Assembly: GCA_018669475.1 (NCBI GenBank)
Contig: JABHCC010000019.1
Location: forward strand, 1 to 64,000
Source: Bacteroidota bacterium
GTDB lineage: Bacteria > Bacteroidota > Bacteroidia > Bacteroidales > UBA12481
DNA: 64,000 nucleotides
Reading direction: 5' to 3'
The notes beneath the pieces were generated by a model. It made no database searches and had not been told where the DNA came from. It was given only the letters and a program-made list of their open reading frames with translations. The position numbers were made by a program, and so were the translations under genes. Each line of letters starts with the position of its first letter. Within the stretch, counting starts at the first letter, position 1. This document shows positions 3,353-58,008 of the stretch, piece after piece.

Positions 3353-3455
3353 CCGTTTATATTTAATTTTATTTGTCGGATGGAGCTCTCACAACAAAAA
3401 CAATCATCCGCGTGTGTGTTAAAAGGTTTTTCCTTTTGTCATGCTCGGTTCATAA
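3353..3455 (-). repeat. leader repeat copy A (orphan, full length)
   Basis: A full copy of the dispersed leader element, read on the minus strand. It starts TTATGAACCGAGCATGA and ends AATTAAATATAAACGG. It contains a 12-codon upstream ORF, MIVFVVRAPSDK, at 3407-3369. Sixteen nt after its stop, the position that holds ATG in other copies reads ATA (3352-3350), and no minus-strand gene follows because the 3' end of the Crp/Fnr gene lies there. The copy is therefore detached from any gene. A short AAAAGG/CCTTTT hairpin is specific to this copy. Confidence 0.8.
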
Positions 3456-4431: not shown

Positions 4432-5784
4432 ATGAAAGCTGTTGAAAAATATTCATATGGTTATGAAATAGCCCGTTCCTGGGTACGATGGACACTCAGA
4501 GGGCTCTTCTATCGTAAAGTAGTAATCAGGGGTTTGGAGAAAATTGATCCAAAAAAACCTATAATAATTGCCGGAAATCATCAGAATGCTTTAATCGATG
4601 CTTTGAATATTCTGAGCATTCTTAAAGCCCAGCCTATCTTCCTGGCAAGAGCTGATATCTTTAAGAAAAAAACCATGGCCATTATACTGAACTGGATGAA
4701 AATCATACCGGTTTACCGTATCCGTGATGGTTTCGACAGTTTACAGAAAAACGATGAAGTCTTTGAAAAATGTGCTAAAATATTAAGTAAAGGCAGAAGT
4801 CTGGCGATTTTTCCTGAAGGTAATCATGGCGATTACCGAACACTGAGAATGCTTAAAAAAGGTCTTGCCCGTGTTGCCTTTGGTGCAGAGAAAGTACGAA
4901 ACTATGAATTAGGAGTACAGATAGTACCAATAGGCCTCGATTATTCGCATTTCGAGAAATTCAGAGCAAGGGTTTCAATCAGTATCGGCGATCCTATTAT
5001 TGTAAATGATTTTTCTGATCTGTATAAAGAGGATGTGCAAAAAGGATACCGGGCCTTAAATGATGAAATAAGAAAACGACTTTTTCCTCATATGATCGAC
5101 GTCCCCTGGCAAGCAATTTACGAAGGTGTAATGGGCATGAGATCTGTTTATGGCAAAATATACCGTGAAAAGAATAATCTGCCCGGAAAAACGATTTTTA
5201 ACCGCTTTGATGCAGATAAGAAACTGATTGACGACATCCGGGAGGTTTATGAAGAAAAACCTGAGCAAACAGAAGAAATCAGTAATAAGCTGGTTCGATA
5301 TCTGAAAAGCCTCGACCGTATGAATCTCAGAAATCACATTCTGGAGGCCGGGTCATTTTCTTTGTTCAGATTATTAGGGGAATCTATGTGGCTGGTTTTA
5401 ATGTCGCCCCTCTTTCTATACGGATTGGTGAATAATTTTGTAGTTTTTACAGTTCCTCATGTACTAACCCGTACAAAGATTAAAGATAAACAGTTCAGAA
5501 GTTCGGTGGCTTATGTTTTGGCTTTTGTTATCTTACTACCCTTATTCTTAGCCATTCAAACACTTATAATAGCTGTCGTATTTAAAACCTGGTGGATAAC
5601 TCTGGCATATCTTATTAGCATAATCCCATTGGGCTTATTTGCGATACACTATTCATTCTGGTTTAAAAAAACCCGGGCCAGATTAAAATTCTGGTACATG
5701 TCATTGCGAAAAAACCCTAAAATTATTTCTCTTGTAAAGACCCGTAAAGAATTGATTTCAGATTTAGACAGTCTTATTTCTTAA
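4432..5784 (+). CDS. membrane PlsC-type acyltransferase
   Basis: A 450-aa phospholipid/glycerol acyltransferase. The catalytic motif NHQNALID (49-56, HX4D) and the FPEG motif (127-130) are present, followed by VPIGLDYSH. The family transfers acyl chains to lysophosphatidic acid or related lipids. The C-terminal half adds about three or four membrane segments (roughly 320-410), as in the long Bacteroidota form, so it should sit in the inner membrane. The exact lipid acceptor is unknown. The start follows the BASS stop by 4 nt, in the context AATATAAACGGATGAAA, which resembles the 3' end of the leader repeat. Its last 11 bases overlap the convergent T9SS gene. Confidence 0.88.
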   Translation: MKAVEKYSYGYEIARSWVRWTLRGLFYRKVVIRGLEKIDPKKPIIIAGNHQNALIDALNILSILKAQPIFLARADIFKKKTMAIILNWMKIIPVYRIRDGFDSLQKNDEVFEKCAKILSKGRSLAIFPEGNHGDYRTLRMLKKGLARVAFGAEKVRNYELGVQIVPIGLDYSHFEKFRARVSISIGDPIIVNDFSDLYKEDVQKGYRALNDEIRKRLFPHMIDVPWQAIYEGVMGMRSVYGKIYREKNNLPGKTIFNRFDADKKLIDDIREVYEEKPEQTEEISNKLVRYLKSLDRMNLRNHILEAGSFSLFRLLGESMWLVLMSPLFLYGLVNNFVVFTVPHVLTRTKIKDKQFRSSVAYVLAFVILLPLFLAIQTLIIAVVFKTWWITLAYLISIIPLGLFAIHYSFWFKKTRARLKFWYMSLRKNPKIISLVKTRKELISDLDSLIS

Positions 5785-8314
5785 GCAATTTTCTGATGGT
5801 ATTTTTCTTGCCAGATACAATTCTGACATAATATAAACCCGATGCCAGCTGGTTCATGTTGATTTCAAGCTTATGTTGACCAGGAATTTCTTCTGAATCT
5901 TGTATCATTCTGATTAATCGCCCATTAGTATCCAGTAAGCTAATTCTTACCTTTCCTCCGGTAGTTAAATTATAGTCAACAAATACAGTATGTTCAACCG
6001 GATTTGGGTAGATATTTATTCCAATGGAATTGTGCCATAATTTATTCTCATCTATTCCGGTGAAATGAGCAATCTGGAAATCCCATATACCCCGGCCGTA
6101 AGTACCGAATCGTGCCGTTTTCAGCGCCGGCACATAATCAACCGACCAATATGTCTGCTCAGGTGCACCTGCTCCCGCCAGATCATACCATTGTTCTTCT
6201 TCGTTTATATAAACGAAGGGACCAACTTCTGTGGCTGCGAAGATCAGACTGGCATCTTCGTTGCGAGCCATTTCAAATATGAGGGTTTTGGGTAAGCCTT
6301 TTGTTTTTCCTCTGAAAATTCTTCCTCCGTCATGACTCACCCAAAAAGAATATCCCGAATATCCACTTCCGCCCAAATAAATAGTGTTGATATCGTTCGG
6401 ATCGGGAATAATTGCATTTCCATAAAAATAATGCGATCCGGGGCCTGAACTTACCGATTTTGACCAAGTGGTTCCACGGTCTGAAGAAGTAAAAAGTTTT
6501 CCTTTTGAATTTAGTACATATCGATAATCCTTGTTTATTGGAGAGAAAGCCATTGCTGATATCCGTCCGCCATTTCCCCCGCTGAAATCATTAGGTAATT
6601 CTGTAACTGATATGCTTCCCCCATTATCGTTAAGGTACCACAAATGATTTCCTGTTGTTGAAGTACCTCCTGCCAGATACACACGCTCGGGATAGTATGG
6701 ATCAGCCATTAATGGTGGCATCCAATAGTGATCCTCACCAGTAAATGTCCACCTGACAGTCTGAAGACTGGATATAGCATTAGGATAACGCATGGCGAAA
6801 CCCGGATAAACTGTCCAAAGACTCTGTCCTCCGTCACTTGAAACAATATGCCCATAGTCTCCGCTTATTGTTTGCTCAAAATTGGCCACTCCATCAGTAA
6901 TTTCAGTTGATCTTTGAAAGCCCTGATCCTGAGATCCAACATATATAATCTGCGTTTTTTCCCTGTGTGTGTACGTGGTATAGTATTGCGAAATATTTAA
7001 TCCCTTGAGAGAAAGATTAGAAACCGTTCTCAGATTATCAGTTGATACATAACTACCCCCATCAGTACTTATATATGCCAATTCTGTATCCTCCGATGTT
7101 CTTATAAACTCTATTTCAGGTATATCTGCATGCAACTTGCTCAGCATATCACCATAGTACTCACCCCATCCATTAATCATCGTCCAGGTAGCTCCACCAT
7201 TTTCAGATCGGTATGCATTCACTCCTCCGTATCCCATTATTTTAGGATTAATACTTGAAACGCCAAAACTATTTCTCATAAACGGACCCTCGCTGACCTC
7301 ACCTTTAACTAGCCAGCTTATTCCTCCATCTGCCGAACTAAAAAATCTGGATGAATTCTCAAGGCGATACATTACATGCAAATGAACTGTATCATTTTTC
7401 ACCATACCATTTAATTGCACACTCCTGATTTCACTGTCAGAGAAATTTATACCCACGCTTGATAGTGACTCCAATTTCTCACCATCATTAACAATGAACA
7501 GATCTTTTTTGTCGAGAAAAAATACACGACTGGGTTCATAACGTGAAGTCCATATATCTGACACATTCGTTCCATTATGTGTATCAAGCAAGCTGAATGA
7601 ATTTCCTGAATCGCTTGATTCGTATAAATAATTCATACTGCCGGATTTATGAAAAAGCAAGAATACCTTCTGATCCATAGTGTTTACACCACGTGAAAGT
7701 CTGTTCCCCGACATTGAATTTAAACCATCCCCATTGATCCAGTTTTGGCCTTCATCATCAGAATATCTGAAGAGAGCAGTGTTATTGGTTTGTACAATTC
7801 TGTTGCTTCCATCAGTATTCTTAAAAACGCGAAAATAATGAACACCTTTCACCTGGTAATGATCTGTCAAAGAGACCCAGTTTTCCCCATTCAATCCTCC
7901 TTTCCAAATCTGGCCACCATCTGATGCTGCATAAAGTTTGTTGTTTTCGATATCCAAATCAATATTATGAACACGCCCTGCCAGATTATTACTCCCCTTC
8001 TCCACCCATTTTCCACTCAGATTTCCATCAGCAAGCACTTCAAGATCACCACTGTTTTTCAGTCTTCGGTTTTCGTTCCTTTGCACTTGTAATTCCTGCC
8101 GGATTTGCTCGTCCATTGCTCTCCAATCAACTCCTGGGGCTGTAAGATGCATTTGTTCAATCCATTCTGCACGGGCTTTATGCTTTTCTTCTTCATTTTC
8201 GTGCTTTACAATATCAGTCGGTTCAGGATGGATCAAATCCGCAGAACGATTACAAAGCATACTTATAGTGATTGCAAGGGCAAGCATACTAGAGATAATG
8301 ACAACTCGTTTCAT
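5774..8314 (-). CDS. secreted BNR/sortilin-like repeat protein with T9SS sorting domain
   Basis: An 846-aa exported protein. A hydrophobic N-terminus (residues 2-20, then Cys21 in SMLCNRS, a poor lipobox) precedes repeated Asp-box-like motifs such as SSDGGQSLW, STDGGSYVS, SSDRGTTWS and SHDGGRIF, typical of sialidase/VPS10-like beta-propellers. The C-terminal ~80 residues (IYPNPVEHTVFVDY, then SGLYYVRIVSGK) are a type A T9SS sorting domain, so it is expected on the cell surface or secreted. No catalytic residues point to an enzyme. Its start codon sits 16 nt after the upstream ORF of leader repeat copy E. It overlaps the acyltransferase gene by 11 bp at the 3' end. Confidence 0.88.
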   Translation of the reverse strand: MKRVVIISSMLALAITISMLCNRSADLIHPEPTDIVKHENEEEKHKARAEWIEQMHLTAPGVDWRAMDEQIRQELQVQRNENRRLKNSGDLEVLADGNLSGKWVEKGSNNLAGRVHNIDLDIENNKLYAASDGGQIWKGGLNGENWVSLTDHYQVKGVHYFRVFKNTDGSNRIVQTNNTALFRYSDDEGQNWINGDGLNSMSGNRLSRGVNTMDQKVFLLFHKSGSMNYLYESSDSGNSFSLLDTHNGTNVSDIWTSRYEPSRVFFLDKKDLFIVNDGEKLESLSSVGINFSDSEIRSVQLNGMVKNDTVHLHVMYRLENSSRFFSSADGGISWLVKGEVSEGPFMRNSFGVSSINPKIMGYGGVNAYRSENGGATWTMINGWGEYYGDMLSKLHADIPEIEFIRTSEDTELAYISTDGGSYVSTDNLRTVSNLSLKGLNISQYYTTYTHREKTQIIYVGSQDQGFQRSTEITDGVANFEQTISGDYGHIVSSDGGQSLWTVYPGFAMRYPNAISSLQTVRWTFTGEDHYWMPPLMADPYYPERVYLAGGTSTTGNHLWYLNDNGGSISVTELPNDFSGGNGGRISAMAFSPINKDYRYVLNSKGKLFTSSDRGTTWSKSVSSGPGSHYFYGNAIIPDPNDINTIYLGGSGYSGYSFWVSHDGGRIFRGKTKGLPKTLIFEMARNEDASLIFAATEVGPFVYINEEEQWYDLAGAGAPEQTYWSVDYVPALKTARFGTYGRGIWDFQIAHFTGIDENKLWHNSIGINIYPNPVEHTVFVDYNLTTGGKVRISLLDTNGRLIRMIQDSEEIPGQHKLEINMNQLASGLYYVRIVSGKKNTIRKLLKK

Positions 8315-8376
8315 CCGTTGATGTTTAGATTTAAAATGATCCGATGGAGCTCATATAACAAAAAATAATCATCCAG
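8315..8376 (-). repeat. leader repeat copy E (diverged 3' half)
   Basis: Minus-strand copy of the 3' part of the dispersed leader. An ATG at 8372 in the context GGATGA opens a 13-codon ORF, MIIFCYMSSIGSF, ending at TAA (8333-8331). Sixteen nt of AT-rich spacer ending AACGG then lead to the ATG (8314) of the T9SS protein. The core GAGCTCCATC is kept but an indel has shifted the small ORF's frame relative to copies A-C. The 5' half is not recognisable. Confidence 0.7.
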
Positions 8377-8437
8377 TATATGTCCAAATGTATATATTAT
8401 TGTCACACTTTACTAATGACGAATCATTACTGCAAAG

Positions 8438-20550: not shown

Positions 20551-20602
20551 TATATGAACCGAGCATGACAAAAGGAAAATATTTTAACAAATACGCGGAT
20601 GA
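20551..20602 (+). repeat. leader repeat copy D (5' half, at dut start)
   Basis: TATATGAACCGAGCATGA through TACGCGGATGA matches copies A and C almost base for base, then similarity ends. The ATG at 20599, which in copies A and C opens the MIVFVV small ORF, is here the start codon of dut. This supports the idea that the element's first half is a real translation initiation region. Confidence 0.75.
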
Positions 20603-28504: not shown

Positions 28505-28752
28505 GCATGGCATAGTATATCGAAAGTTATTAGAAAGGTGCTTATTCTAAAAAAGCCATAATGTTCAGTTAATCAAGCATTAAGGACAAATAGTGATCTT
28601 GTAGGAAAGAAAATGTAATTTTCGACGATTATTTTACAATTTTTCAGACATGACAACCAGCAAAACGATCTTAAAAACACAGATAAGATTATTTTTGCTT
28701 ATGTGAGACTTCCTGATTATTTAGGGAAATAAATAAATTGATGTAAACTGTT
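28505..28752. other. AT-rich intergenic stretch before mnmG
   Basis: Between the ybeY terminator and leader repeat copy F I see no coding region, hairpin or recognised RNA. The mnmG promoter presumably lies here, but no clear TTTG/TAnnTTTG pair is visible. Confidence 0.4.
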
Positions 28753-28853
28753 GAAGCGAGCATGAATAAAATCAAAATCATTATGACATACATGACGGTG
28801 ATATTTTTTTATTATGCGAACTCGATCCGATAAAACTAAATGATTAAAAACGG
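28753..28853 (+). repeat. leader repeat copy F (full length, diverged)
   Basis: Upstream of mnmG. It keeps the landmarks in order: GCGAGCATGA, ACATGACGGTGATATTTTTTTATTATGCGA, GATCCGATAAA, and AAAAACGG directly before ATG. An ATG at 28762 opens a 23-codon ORF ending in TAA at 28831-28833, 20 nt before the mnmG start. In copy C a 23-codon ORF starts at the same landmark (GAGCATG), which argues that the longer frame is ancestral. Confidence 0.65.
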
Positions 28854-53600: not shown

Positions 53601-53656
53601 TCGTTTATATTTAATTTTATTTATCGGATGGAGCTCGCACAACAAAAACAATCATC
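53601..53656 (-). repeat. leader repeat copy B (3' half)
   Basis: Minus-strand copy beginning in TGATGATTG and ending AATTAAATATAAACGA. It carries the 12-codon ORF MIVFVVRAPSDK (53655-53617) and 16 nt of spacer before the ATG (53600) of the downstream gene. The stop codon of the upstream M20 peptidase gene overlaps the small ORF's start (TGATG), so in this copy the peptidase, the small ORF and the secreted protein could be translationally coupled. Confidence 0.8.
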
Positions 53657-55121
53657 ATTGTCCTTTGTTTTTTGTTATTCCAATAAGGAAATTATAATAG
53701 ATTTCCGCACCAACATTCAGTGCGGTAATGGGGATACGCTCATTGAAGTTATGCATAGTGGAAAGCAGATCCTCGCTTAGGGGGAATGGGTTTGATCCGT
53801 AGGCTGGAATTCCTTTGAGACGGAAGTGAATACAGTCAGAGAATCCTGGAAGTAATGCAGGGATTACTTCACAGGAAGGGAAACTCTTTTTAATAGCCTC
53901 TTGATATGTTGAATAATAAACATTATCGAGGGATGAAGGAATAGTTCCCGATAGTGAATCACTTATTATGACTTTAATATCAGGATTGTCAATAGTTTTC
54001 TCAATTGACCGAATGAAGTCCTCTATATTCTCCTCTGGCATTAAGCGGCAATCCAAACGACATTCCAAGCATTGAGGTAGTGAATTTGATGAATGTGAAA
54101 CAGTTTTGTAGTCAACAAGTGTAATCGAGTTAGAAAAGAATATCATCATACGAGAATCTTTTCTGATCTTCATGGAAATTAAAGGTTTGAATAGGCGGGG
54201 ATACTTCATTACAAATCCCGTAATTCCCCTTTCCAATTTGCCAAGTCCTTTTAACATACCGACATTCGTTTCGTTATAAACAAAATCACGTTTTGCGGAT
54301 AATAAACGGCTCAGTGCCAGCGTAAGGTCTTTTGCCGGGTAGTGCTCAGGGCAACTTGCGCTATGGGCAAAAGAACTATGAGCTAATTGCAGCTTAATCC
54401 ATAGCGGCTTTTTGTCAACAACGCTTATTCCAAAAACTTCTTGGTCCTTGTCAGTTTGTACAATTCCCTTCATTCCCGATGGCCCTTCGCAGAAGACCAC
54501 AGCAGGGTTAAGTATATCGATGTAGGTATCTGTAACATGGCTAGCACCATTATCGCTAATAATCTCCTCAGCAGAGACAGCTAAAAAAGTTATATTGAAA
54601 TCCGAGCTATTGTTAAGGTAATCAGATTTGAATTTCAGCAAACTAACTAGCTGTGCAACTGCTACCCCTTTCATATCTAGGGCCCCTCTACCCCATATTT
54701 CTCCATCCACAATCTTGCCATGGAATGGTGGTTGTTCCCACTTTGATCCTGATCCTGCAGGAACTACATCCATGTGGTTTAATAAAATAATATTCGGCTT
54801 GCCTTCTTCTAGTGGATATAAGGATGCAGCAAAATTGTAGTTACCCTGCTCACTCCCCAATTGTTTTATAAAAAGACCATTTTCCACGCACACAGTTAGC
54901 AAAAATTCACCTGCCGCCATCTCTTGTCCGGATACAGATGGAATCTGAAGATATATGCTTAACAAATCTTCAATAGAAGTCTCTTTTCCTTCAAGCTCAA
55001 CAGACCAATAGTCTGGAGGCAAACTATATTGTGCGCAATTTTCTTCCGGAATACAAATGCCTATCAATAAGAAGATCCAAAATACCAGAATTTGACTTTG
55101 CTTAAGGTGCCTTCGGCTCAT
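53655..55121 (-). CDS. M20 family metallopeptidase (PM20D1-like), exported
   Basis: A 488-aa zinc peptidase with a hydrophobic signal region (about 9-25). M20 motifs are present: LLNHMDVVPAG with the metal His and Asp, EIWGRGALDMKG, SAEEIISDNGASH with the catalytic Glu pair, and a dimerisation domain in the middle. The overall form is closest to carboxypeptidase S/PM20D1-like enzymes, which form or cleave N-acyl amino acids or dipeptides. Its stop overlaps the small ORF of leader copy B. Confidence 0.9.
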   Translation of the reverse strand: MSRRHLKQSQILVFWIFLLIGICIPEENCAQYSLPPDYWSVELEGKETSIEDLLSIYLQIPSVSGQEMAAGEFLLTVCVENGLFIKQLGSEQGNYNFAASLYPLEEGKPNIILLNHMDVVPAGSGSKWEQPPFHGKIVDGEIWGRGALDMKGVAVAQLVSLLKFKSDYLNNSSDFNITFLAVSAEEIISDNGASHVTDTYIDILNPAVVFCEGPSGMKGIVQTDKDQEVFGISVVDKKPLWIKLQLAHSSFAHSASCPEHYPAKDLTLALSRLLSAKRDFVYNETNVGMLKGLGKLERGITGFVMKYPRLFKPLISMKIRKDSRMMIFFSNSITLVDYKTVSHSSNSLPQCLECRLDCRLMPEENIEDFIRSIEKTIDNPDIKVIISDSLSGTIPSSLDNVYYSTYQEAIKKSFPSCEVIPALLPGFSDCIHFRLKGIPAYGSNPFPLSEDLLSTMHNFNERIPITALNVGAEIYYNFLIGITKNKGQ

Positions 55122-57398: not shown

Positions 57399-57905
57399 TT
57401 ATTGAGATAATGATAATGTAATCTGCGCACCAACAAAGCAATTCTTTTGTTGCCAACTAATACTTGGGGATATTTTAACACTAGAAAGATTATTTCCAAA
57501 TGCTTTGTTTACATCAGATATTCGGTTTTTGCCAATTATCCAGGTTGGAATCCCTAAAGGAATCGCAGCAGCCCCTAAACCTACGAGGAGCGCACCTCCA
57601 AGTAAACCACTTACGAAAGATAATGGTGATGAAGGCGATCTCCCGGCAGGGCCATTAAACTGATTAGCTGCATGTATGAAAAGCCCACTGCCGGACGCAA
57701 TAAATCCTAAGCCAATGAAGGTTACTATTTTACCTTTTTTTACATTCAAATTTGCCTTTTGTAATGCATCATTAACTTGATCTTCAGTTAAATCGTTAAT
57801 ATTTTCAACGCCAAACTGTTTATTAAACCATTGACCATTGGCTGATTGTGGGAGCAACGTAACGAATAGAATAGTACAGAAAAATAATACTGATATTGTT
57901 TTCAT
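57399..57905 (-). CDS. secreted/membrane protein of unknown function
   Basis: A 168-aa protein: signal peptide (to about ANGQ, residue 25), a short helical DUF4920-unlike region (NINDLTEDQVNDALQKANLNVKKG), then two Gly/Ala-rich hydrophobic segments (TFIGLGFIASGSGLFIHA and SGLLGGALLVGLGAAAIPLG) and a polar tail. Family not recognised. The start codon lies 16 nt after the small ORF of leader repeat copy C. Confidence 0.62.
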   Translation of the reverse strand: MKTISVLFFCTILFVTLLPQSANGQWFNKQFGVENINDLTEDQVNDALQKANLNVKKGKIVTFIGLGFIASGSGLFIHAANQFNGPAGRSPSSPLSFVSGLLGGALLVGLGAAAIPLGIPTWIIGKNRISDVNKAFGNNLSSVKISPSISWQQKNCFVGAQITLSLSQ

Positions 57906-58008
57906 ACGTTTATATTTATTTTTAAAGGCCGGATGGAGCTCGCACAACAAAAACTATCATCCGCGTGTGTGTTAAAATATTTTCCTTTTGCATGCTCGGT
58001 TCATAATA
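57906..58008 (-). repeat. leader repeat copy C (full length)
   Basis: The most complete copy attached to a gene. From the 5' end on the minus strand it reads TTATGAACCGAGCATGC, AAAAGGAAAATATTTTAACA, CACACGCGGATGATAG, TTTTTGTTGTGCGAGCTCC, ATCCGGCC, and ends AAATAAATATAAACGT. The 12-codon small ORF is MIVFVVRAPSGL (57960-57922); because one A is missing after GCATG, the frame is open from the earlier ATG at 57993, giving 23 codons. Spacer to the main ATG is 16 nt. Confidence 0.82.

Follow-up and report, generated by a model that had tools for sequence, protein, structure and literature searches.

A short sequence lies directly against the start codon of a minus-strand gene (57402–57905; 168 aa, no family found by Pfam search) in the 64,000-nucleotide stretch of DNA analysed here (the window), and similar sequences precede unrelated genes elsewhere in the window. 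What is this sequence, and why does it recur at start codons? The copy under study (57906–58004, minus strand) extends from ATGAA at its left end (58004) up to the base preceding the ATG of the gene (57905). Direct reading of the window confirms the six copies reported in the earlier note, all of them where it had placed them. Apart from the copy under study, these are a full element at 3353–3453 (minus strand), with its right end against ATAAAA and no start codon; a diverged copy at 8315–8417 (minus strand) that ends at the ATG of a T9SS sorting tail protein (5777–8314); a copy of the first half alone at 20554–20598 (plus strand), fused to the ATG of dut at a site that is empty in three relatives; an old full copy at 28751–28853 (plus strand) that ends at the ATG of mnmG; and an incomplete copy, mainly the second half, at 53601–53683 (minus strand), which runs up to the ATG of a 203-aa protein that has no Pfam family. 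Five of the six, listed in that note as 8315, 20551, 28753, 53601 and 57906, adjoin a start codon, as claimed there, and the one at 3353 adjoins ATAAAA instead.

The two core motifs of the element did not occur in 100 shuffles of the window. A covariance model (R1) with 20 pairs, built from 43 of the 80 copies that we collected, recovers all six copies at E < 0.01, with scores of 100.3 bits (3353), 67 bits (8315), 25.5 bits (20554), 72.3 bits (28751), 55.6 bits (53601) and 89 bits for the copy under study, where the match (57901–58004) takes in the ATGAA of the gene. The weakest match is the truncated copy at 20554 (E 0.0049), and no other match in the window falls below E 0.26. R1 was built without window references, yet two of the six are among its copies, listed by locus name or represented by close kin.

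The copies share a common architecture, namely, ATGAA[A/C]CGA, a long hairpin, GAG[C/T]TCCATnnG, an AT-rich stretch, AAACnn and the ATGAA of the gene. The ends of the element, in most copies from the order, are ATGAA[A/C]CGA and AAACnnATGAA. Stem 1 is formed by GCATGAC.. with ..GTYATGC, and stem 2 by CATnnG with CnnATG, the ATG of which is the start codon of the gene. In the copy under study, hairpin 1 (57942–57995, minus strand), assigned on the basis of covariation, pairs GCATG..CAAAA with TTTTTGTTGTGC around a loop with the motif CACACA..GGATGAT, and has lost one base of the 5' arm. The arm CATCCG (57930–57935, minus strand) pairs with the last three bases of the element and the start codon (CGTATG, 57903–57908) at five of six positions, a pairing that is backed by covariation across copies. 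A small ORF, MIVFVVRAPSGL* (57922–57960, minus strand), runs from an ATG in the loop through the CATCCG arm and stops 16 nt before the main ATG.

Is the position at start codons general? The earlier note proposed a genome-wide search for copies at start codons, and we carried it out with two patterns, allowing up to three mismatches. This yielded 91 first-half and 87 second-half matches in the 5.56-Mb genome, compared to none across the whole genome for reversed control patterns. Combined, the matches define 114 places: both halves are present at 64, the first half alone at 27 and the second half alone at 23. Four of these are directly followed by another copy, head-to-tail. One more runs into a contig end and is apparently the same place as another (C140 and C208). 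Without these five, 109 places can be judged. Under a loose reading, where the longest ORF among the candidate ATGs is taken, the right-end ATG opens an ORF of at least 60 aa at 92 of the 109 places. Under a strict reading, which accepts only the first ATGA[AC] beyond the expected body of the element, the number is 83, and ten of the misses have no ATGA[AC] at all in the short stretch inspected. CGG, the element's own end, precedes the ATG in 56 of the 83 strict cases. By a simple ORF-based split, the ATGA[AC] sites available in the window comprise 31 start-like, 40 noncoding non-start and 362 coding ones. Thus, start codons are the preferred location, not the exclusive one.

The genes behind the copies are unrelated. 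Among ten that were searched against Pfam, there are a T9SS-tail protein, dUTPase, MnmG, a class I (M) tRNA synthetase, a tRNA_Me_trans (MnmA-type) protein, an IGPD protein with a HAD domain (HisB-type), an L-PSP (RidA-type) protein, a protein with B3/4 and tRNA-binding domains (PheT-like), and two proteins without a Pfam family.

No gene-bearing version of the element was seen. We also considered, and rejected, a long autonomous version: the 50 of the 114 places that carry one half only were inspected by eye over about 150 bp and appear truncated or degenerate in place. A first-half and a second-half place on one strand of C214, 4.1 kb apart, were likewise examined as the two ends of a long element, and each looks like a separate relic. 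The possibility that the halves are two independent modules, each with an ATGA start and a CGG end, was dropped because other genomes contain the full unit with different letters at the inner site, so that the half-copies are better taken as truncations. About 15 of the 27 first-half copies (by eye; 17 by an automatic flag) are fused directly at GGATGA[A/C], for example, at 20554–20598 in the window. Deletion between the inner and outer copies of the motif, or a short mobile subfamily, would explain these fusions.

The element is not confined to this genome. BLAST at E 0.001 found a match in 3 of 59 relatives (own genome excluded), strong in G002 and weak in G016 and G059. Scanning named genomes for an exact 20-mer returned 29 matches, spread over 28 stretches. 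Of these stretches, 15 are in CSMAG_487 (labelled Bacteroidales), five in C2.bin.40 and seven in five further MAGs of Bacteroidota or Bacteroidetes, and the last lies in a contig binned as Mcinerneyibacteriota. The latter copy (L141, DAOVMD010000295.1), on a contig assigned to Candidatus Mcinerneyibacteriota, reflects either transfer or mis-binning. R1 was applied to 295 genomes of the same order and gave matches at E ≤ 0.01 in 99 of them, in a search that scored up to 13 candidates per genome, with rough E-values and about three genomes expected by chance. From the 89 order-level loci that were fetched, we obtained 108 matches, about 90–140 bp in length, with an ATG at the right end in 105; since both the structure and the ATGAA end are part of the model used to sample and align them, copies with these features are favoured. 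The match opens an ORF of 60 aa, or runs off the locus, in 76 of the 108. Among the remaining 32, ten were flagged as having a next matching copy, five more such cases were recognized by eye, three have no ATG, and 14 lie at an ATGAA that opens no 60-aa ORF and is followed by no copy. Removal of the element in silico at these 32 sites produced only one ORF of at least 80 aa across the site, on the opposite strand; thus, the element was not found to break genes in the order-level sample. Arrays of three head-to-tail copies with a fixed period occur at G231:C1:824925–825322, L342 and L363; the period is 131 bp in G231 and about 91 bp in G203. Near-identical copies are present in G231 and G269. 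No element was found in viral contigs by two pattern scans, or in phage and plasmid records by one distant search each with one order-level copy as the query.

This is a real and widespread family of mobile elements with a preference for start codons. Head-to-tail copies, copies at non-start ATGAA and the local target preference described below all fit a mobile element. We consider it likely that it is a non-autonomous element of about 90–140 bp, widespread in the order, that would be directed by a guide and would survive at start codons.

Traces of insertion can be seen at dut. In this genome, the native UTR end (..TTTTCGTTAT) is followed by the first-half element and then by ATGAAG. In G001, from the same genus, ..TTTCGTTTT is joined directly to ATGAAG, and in G004 and G006, from the same family, ..CGTTTT is joined directly to ATGAAG, with no element in any of the three. 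Since the end of the 5' UTR and the start codon are closely similar in these element-free relatives, the element is an insertion between the UTR and the start codon, as judged from a single aligned site with a short UTR end and a half copy. At the joints, the native UTR end adjoins the left ATGAA of the element, and the gene's own ATGAA comes after the right end; thus, ATGAA is present at both ends of the element and once in the empty site, which fits duplication or a carried copy alike. The element is also absent in G001 at mnmG and at the counterpart of the gene at C171:48024, the latter being the one additional element-free gene that came out of a search of 20 G001 contigs, picked by number only; in both cases the UTR is not alignable.

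A further case is found in two related MAGs, JADFUQ C2.bin.40 and JAUVHQ CSMAG_406. Their common gene is 92.8% identical over 600 bp, and the upstream sequence 85% over 60 bp and 73.5% over 200 bp, and different subfamilies of the element (81%) occupy one and the same start codon. This is recurrent insertion or replacement at one site. Exchange between leaders by homologous recombination or gene conversion, instead of transposition, could yield the same pattern, and fusion at the repeated GGATGA[A/C], seen in 15 of the 27 first-half copies, might be read in this way as well. However, gene conversion needs homology, and the empty dut site has just ATGAA in common with the ends of the element, so we regard this alternative as very improbable.

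Pairing in the two stems was compared between different sets of copies. Among 43 copies, 90.8% of the cells pair, and 47 cells show double changes compared to 16.4 after shuffling, a value that none of 500 shuffles reaches; two measures that count by pairs or by types are weaker (reached by 30 and 73 of 500 shuffles). Across 102 distinct order-level rows, in an alignment fitted to the structure, there are 229 double-change cells compared to 63.6 after shuffling, with double changes in 19 of the 20 pairs, and no measure is reached by any shuffle. Between the stem-2 arm and the right end, the bases CTG/CAG are found in 52 of the 102 copies, ATG/CAT in nine, CCG/CGG in eight, GTG/CAC in seven, ACG/CGT in four, and AAG/CTT and GCG/CGC in one each. 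The arm and the right end are fully paired in 84 of the 102 order-level copies and in 48 of 73 copies in the own genome. Variable pairs are formed in 95.1% of cases in 34 copies from other genomes (78.9% shuffled; 0 of 2000 shuffles) and in 87.7% in the own genome (85.4% shuffled; a level reached by 37 of 2000 shuffles).

Covariation across subfamilies shows that the structure is important, and the simplest view is that it serves the element itself; the conservation of landmarks inside the own genome follows from the common descent of the copies. We read this pattern, without claiming proof, as constraint while the element moves, followed by decay in place. RNA folding gives a z-score of 0.05 for the 57906 copy, no better than shuffles, a weak −1.3 for a second copy in the window, and −2.2 to −5.9 for five copies from other genomes, with stem 2 absent from the best folds of two of these (L284 and L299). 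Folding of the antisense DNA strand of four copies gave z-scores of 1.3, −3.8, −1.2 and −2.2.

The earlier note favoured a translational or attenuation leader under selection, citing a gap of exactly 16 nt between the small-ORF stop and the main ATG position. Direct reading confirms this gap for 3353, 8315, 53601 and 57906. A leader of this kind, that is, a cis-regulatory attenuator or riboswitch-like device with the start codon locked in hairpin 2 and freed by translation of the small ORF, would account for the inclusion of the start codon in the covarying hairpin 2. It would also fit the small ORF, which is open across the 5' arm of this hairpin in 159 of 170 copies (86 of 90 from the order-level set, 46 of 48 from the own genome and 27 of 32 from other genomes), and the excess of G.T over A.C wobbles in the stems on the sense strand, which is seen by cells (50 vs 9 and 51 vs 16) and hardly at all by distinct types (6 vs 6 and 16 vs 11). 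The frame of the loop ATG is open in 126 of 133 copies, compared to 95 of 133 for one control frame (the other begins with a stop by construction), so selection on the loop small ORF is weakly shown. Across the family, the small-ORF stops lie at many different distances from the main ATG; the 16-nt spacing thus reflects descent and is not a rule, and a plain attenuator fits less well.

Several other observations argue against a selected leader. The downstream genes are unrelated and include housekeeping ones (dut, mnmG and methionyl-tRNA synthetase, among the ten tested), copies occur at non-start sites too, and three relatives have no element at dut. Resident copies often lose pairing, with own-genome pairs barely above the shuffled level, and the 57906 copy itself shows no folding signal. 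Conservation at orthologous genes, as would be expected of an attenuator, was not found among the few genes that could be compared. We therefore consider a dedicated cis-regulatory leader quite unlikely as the origin of these sequences. The mobile element might have some leader function.

The copies probably lie within transcribed leaders, judging from the sequences upstream. Twelve of 70 copies have the motif TAnnTTTG, which we take to be the Bacteroidetes-type promoter consensus, in the 45 nt upstream, whereas 1000 base shuffles gave 2.2 on average and never more than 8; this count left out six of 76 copies that follow the end of another copy, and all second-half places. Such a location, the weak lean of the wobbles to the sense strand and the enrichment at start codons would be expected if the element spread through RNA, with a DNA copy made from the leader RNA and inserted at start codons, for example, by pairing of a guide with the ATG in a transcript or a transcription bubble. 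We hold this to be an unlikely route, given that copies exist at non-start ATGAA and that a DNA mechanism with an ATGAA target accounts for the same facts.

How, then, could a mobile element find start codons? Between the two stems lies G[T/C]TCCATnnG, a motif complementary to Cnn-ATG, that is, to the right end and the target. In the A/T type, it is complementary also to the left end, ATG-A-AAC, save for one A.C (G.T on the other strand); in the C/C type, the left-end half of the motif has a mismatch, so that pairing with the left end holds for the A/T type only. The left base and the guide base are A with T in 62 and C with C in 14 of the 102 order-level copies, the only set in which this count is informative, as C with C was forced by the search pattern in the own and other sets. 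Since C with C is not a pair, the association may reflect the history of subfamilies. On the antisense strand, TTCAT is present at both ends, and CnnATG lies 5' of the hairpin and pairs with TTCATnnG. The sequence around the insertions is biased as well. T or G precedes the left end in 58 of 70 copies and in 65 of 91 copies of the order-level set, compared to 26 of the 51 native ATGAA starts. ATGAA is followed by A in 75 and by G in one of 93 copies, compared to A in 29 and G in nine of 51 native starts. This local preference supports sequence-directed insertion.

From this anatomy, we infer that the central motif, GTTC-CAT-nnG, could be a guide. Its CAT-nnG part would pair with the right end and the target (Cnn-ATG). 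GTTC-CAT comes close to the complement of ATG-AAAC at the left end, so that one guide could bring both ends of the element to an ATG target. The logic would be that of the single-strand IS200/IS605 transposons, with TTCAT on the antisense strand as the putative cleavage and target site, and a putative nuclease acting in trans would move the element. We propose that insertions at start codons would survive because the element supplies a fresh initiation region and the small ORFs, which begin at the old start position and in the loop, may serve as a relay, with ribosomes crossing the start-codon hairpin and restarting at the gene; copies landing within genes would not persist. The relay is a prediction from sequence. 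Tentatively, and with considerably less confidence than in the mobile element as such, we suggest that this element may specifically attack start codons, its guide CATnn reading the ATG, and could occupy even essential genes owing to the small-ORF relay. The guide and both ends would form one complementary junction, and the element would represent a new guide-directed kind, the movement of which might depend on RNA or on an enzyme that belongs to none of the known transposase families.

The obvious candidate for the mover is a Y1 transposase. A search with Pfam PF01797 located 85 places with Y1 genes in 26 genomes: one place in the own genome, 29 in seven of nine genomes, and 55 in 15 of 16 element-bearing genomes. 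Sixty of the 85 were fetched and searched with the covariance model, and the element was present at none of these genes, so for these places a Y1 transposase was rejected as a linked mover, and an associated gene may lie among the other 25; two of the 60 places have an element about 1 kb off (L311 and L314). No Y1 gene was found at E 0.001 in G082, which has seven element matches, nor in G001 (62% complete) or G066, and the other carriers tested have one or more. Among 14 Y1 genes that were read with their flanks, most have other palindromes beside them. An apparent element beside the Y1 gene in L317 proved false on reading, and a weak match (E 2.2) by the Y1 gene in L251, which sits beside other repeats, may be an old right end. 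The only Y1 gene of the own genome (L145:1408–1857) carries the motif DHVH..YIKNQREHHKK, similar to subclass 1.2 in the table of PMC6006769, where no REP is listed for this subclass.

The claim that no element of this form has been described agrees with our searches. Rfam returned nothing above the gathering score at the element in 14 loci (a sub-threshold microRNA model overlaps the element in L299), and no description of such an element was found in the titles and abstract openings of the literature searched. Among known systems, the IS200/IS605 elements are the closest in logic. They lack terminal inverted repeats, and their target is short and fixed (TTGAT in ISDra2, for example); their non-autonomous derivatives are known as PATEs. 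In these elements, an internal hairpin is accompanied by an adjacent guide complementary to the cleavage site (PMC8266576), an arrangement that the hairpin and the guide-like motif described here would match. Unlike IS200/IS605, this element is not linked to Y1 (60 of 85 places), has one hairpin by the guide instead of two, shows complementarity that reaches into both ends, is enriched at start codons and carries small ORFs.

REPs and REPINs, which are proposed to be non-autonomous elements moved by the Y1 enzyme TnpA_REP (RAYT) (PMC8266576, PMC3116915), likewise form many short structured copies per genome. However, REPs are palindromes of 20–40 bp (PMC3733652), whereas our element is about 90–140 bp long and was not found at the Y1 genes searched. 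In the Bacteroidetes, the subclass 2.6 genes are described as having atypical flanking structures with copies elsewhere in the genome (PMC6006769). The earlier note suggested a MITE-like unit that carries its own initiation site. This holds insofar as the element is short, present in high copy number, dispersed mostly against start codons, with initiation sites of its own, and probably moved in trans. It fails in that the ends are ATGAA on both sides, without terminal inverted repeats, and it is the internal structure that covaries. IStrons also are mobile elements whose insertions are rendered harmless to the host (PMC4227781), and, unlike these self-splicing elements, the one described here would keep the gene working via translation restart.

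Short structured non-autonomous elements are known; what is unusual here is the target, the guide-like pairing and the position in leaders. If our reading is correct, many genes in the order, housekeeping ones included, carry a transposon-derived leader that replaces the native translation start, and the start codon is a safe harbour for a selfish element. Such genes would also provide a natural system for translation restart in bacteria with little dependence on Shine-Dalgarno pairing, and a short element with a guide-like motif offers a pairing rule that can be tested. For annotation, the real start of the gene comes after the element.

Some of the elements contain a nested small palindrome, TCCCGAT..ATCGGGA, located in the loop or substituting for the CATnnG arm (L117:6182–6310, L121, L124, L129, L132, L135, L136, L144, L174, G000:C133:57648 and C71:47099), which is perhaps another repeat inserted into the element.
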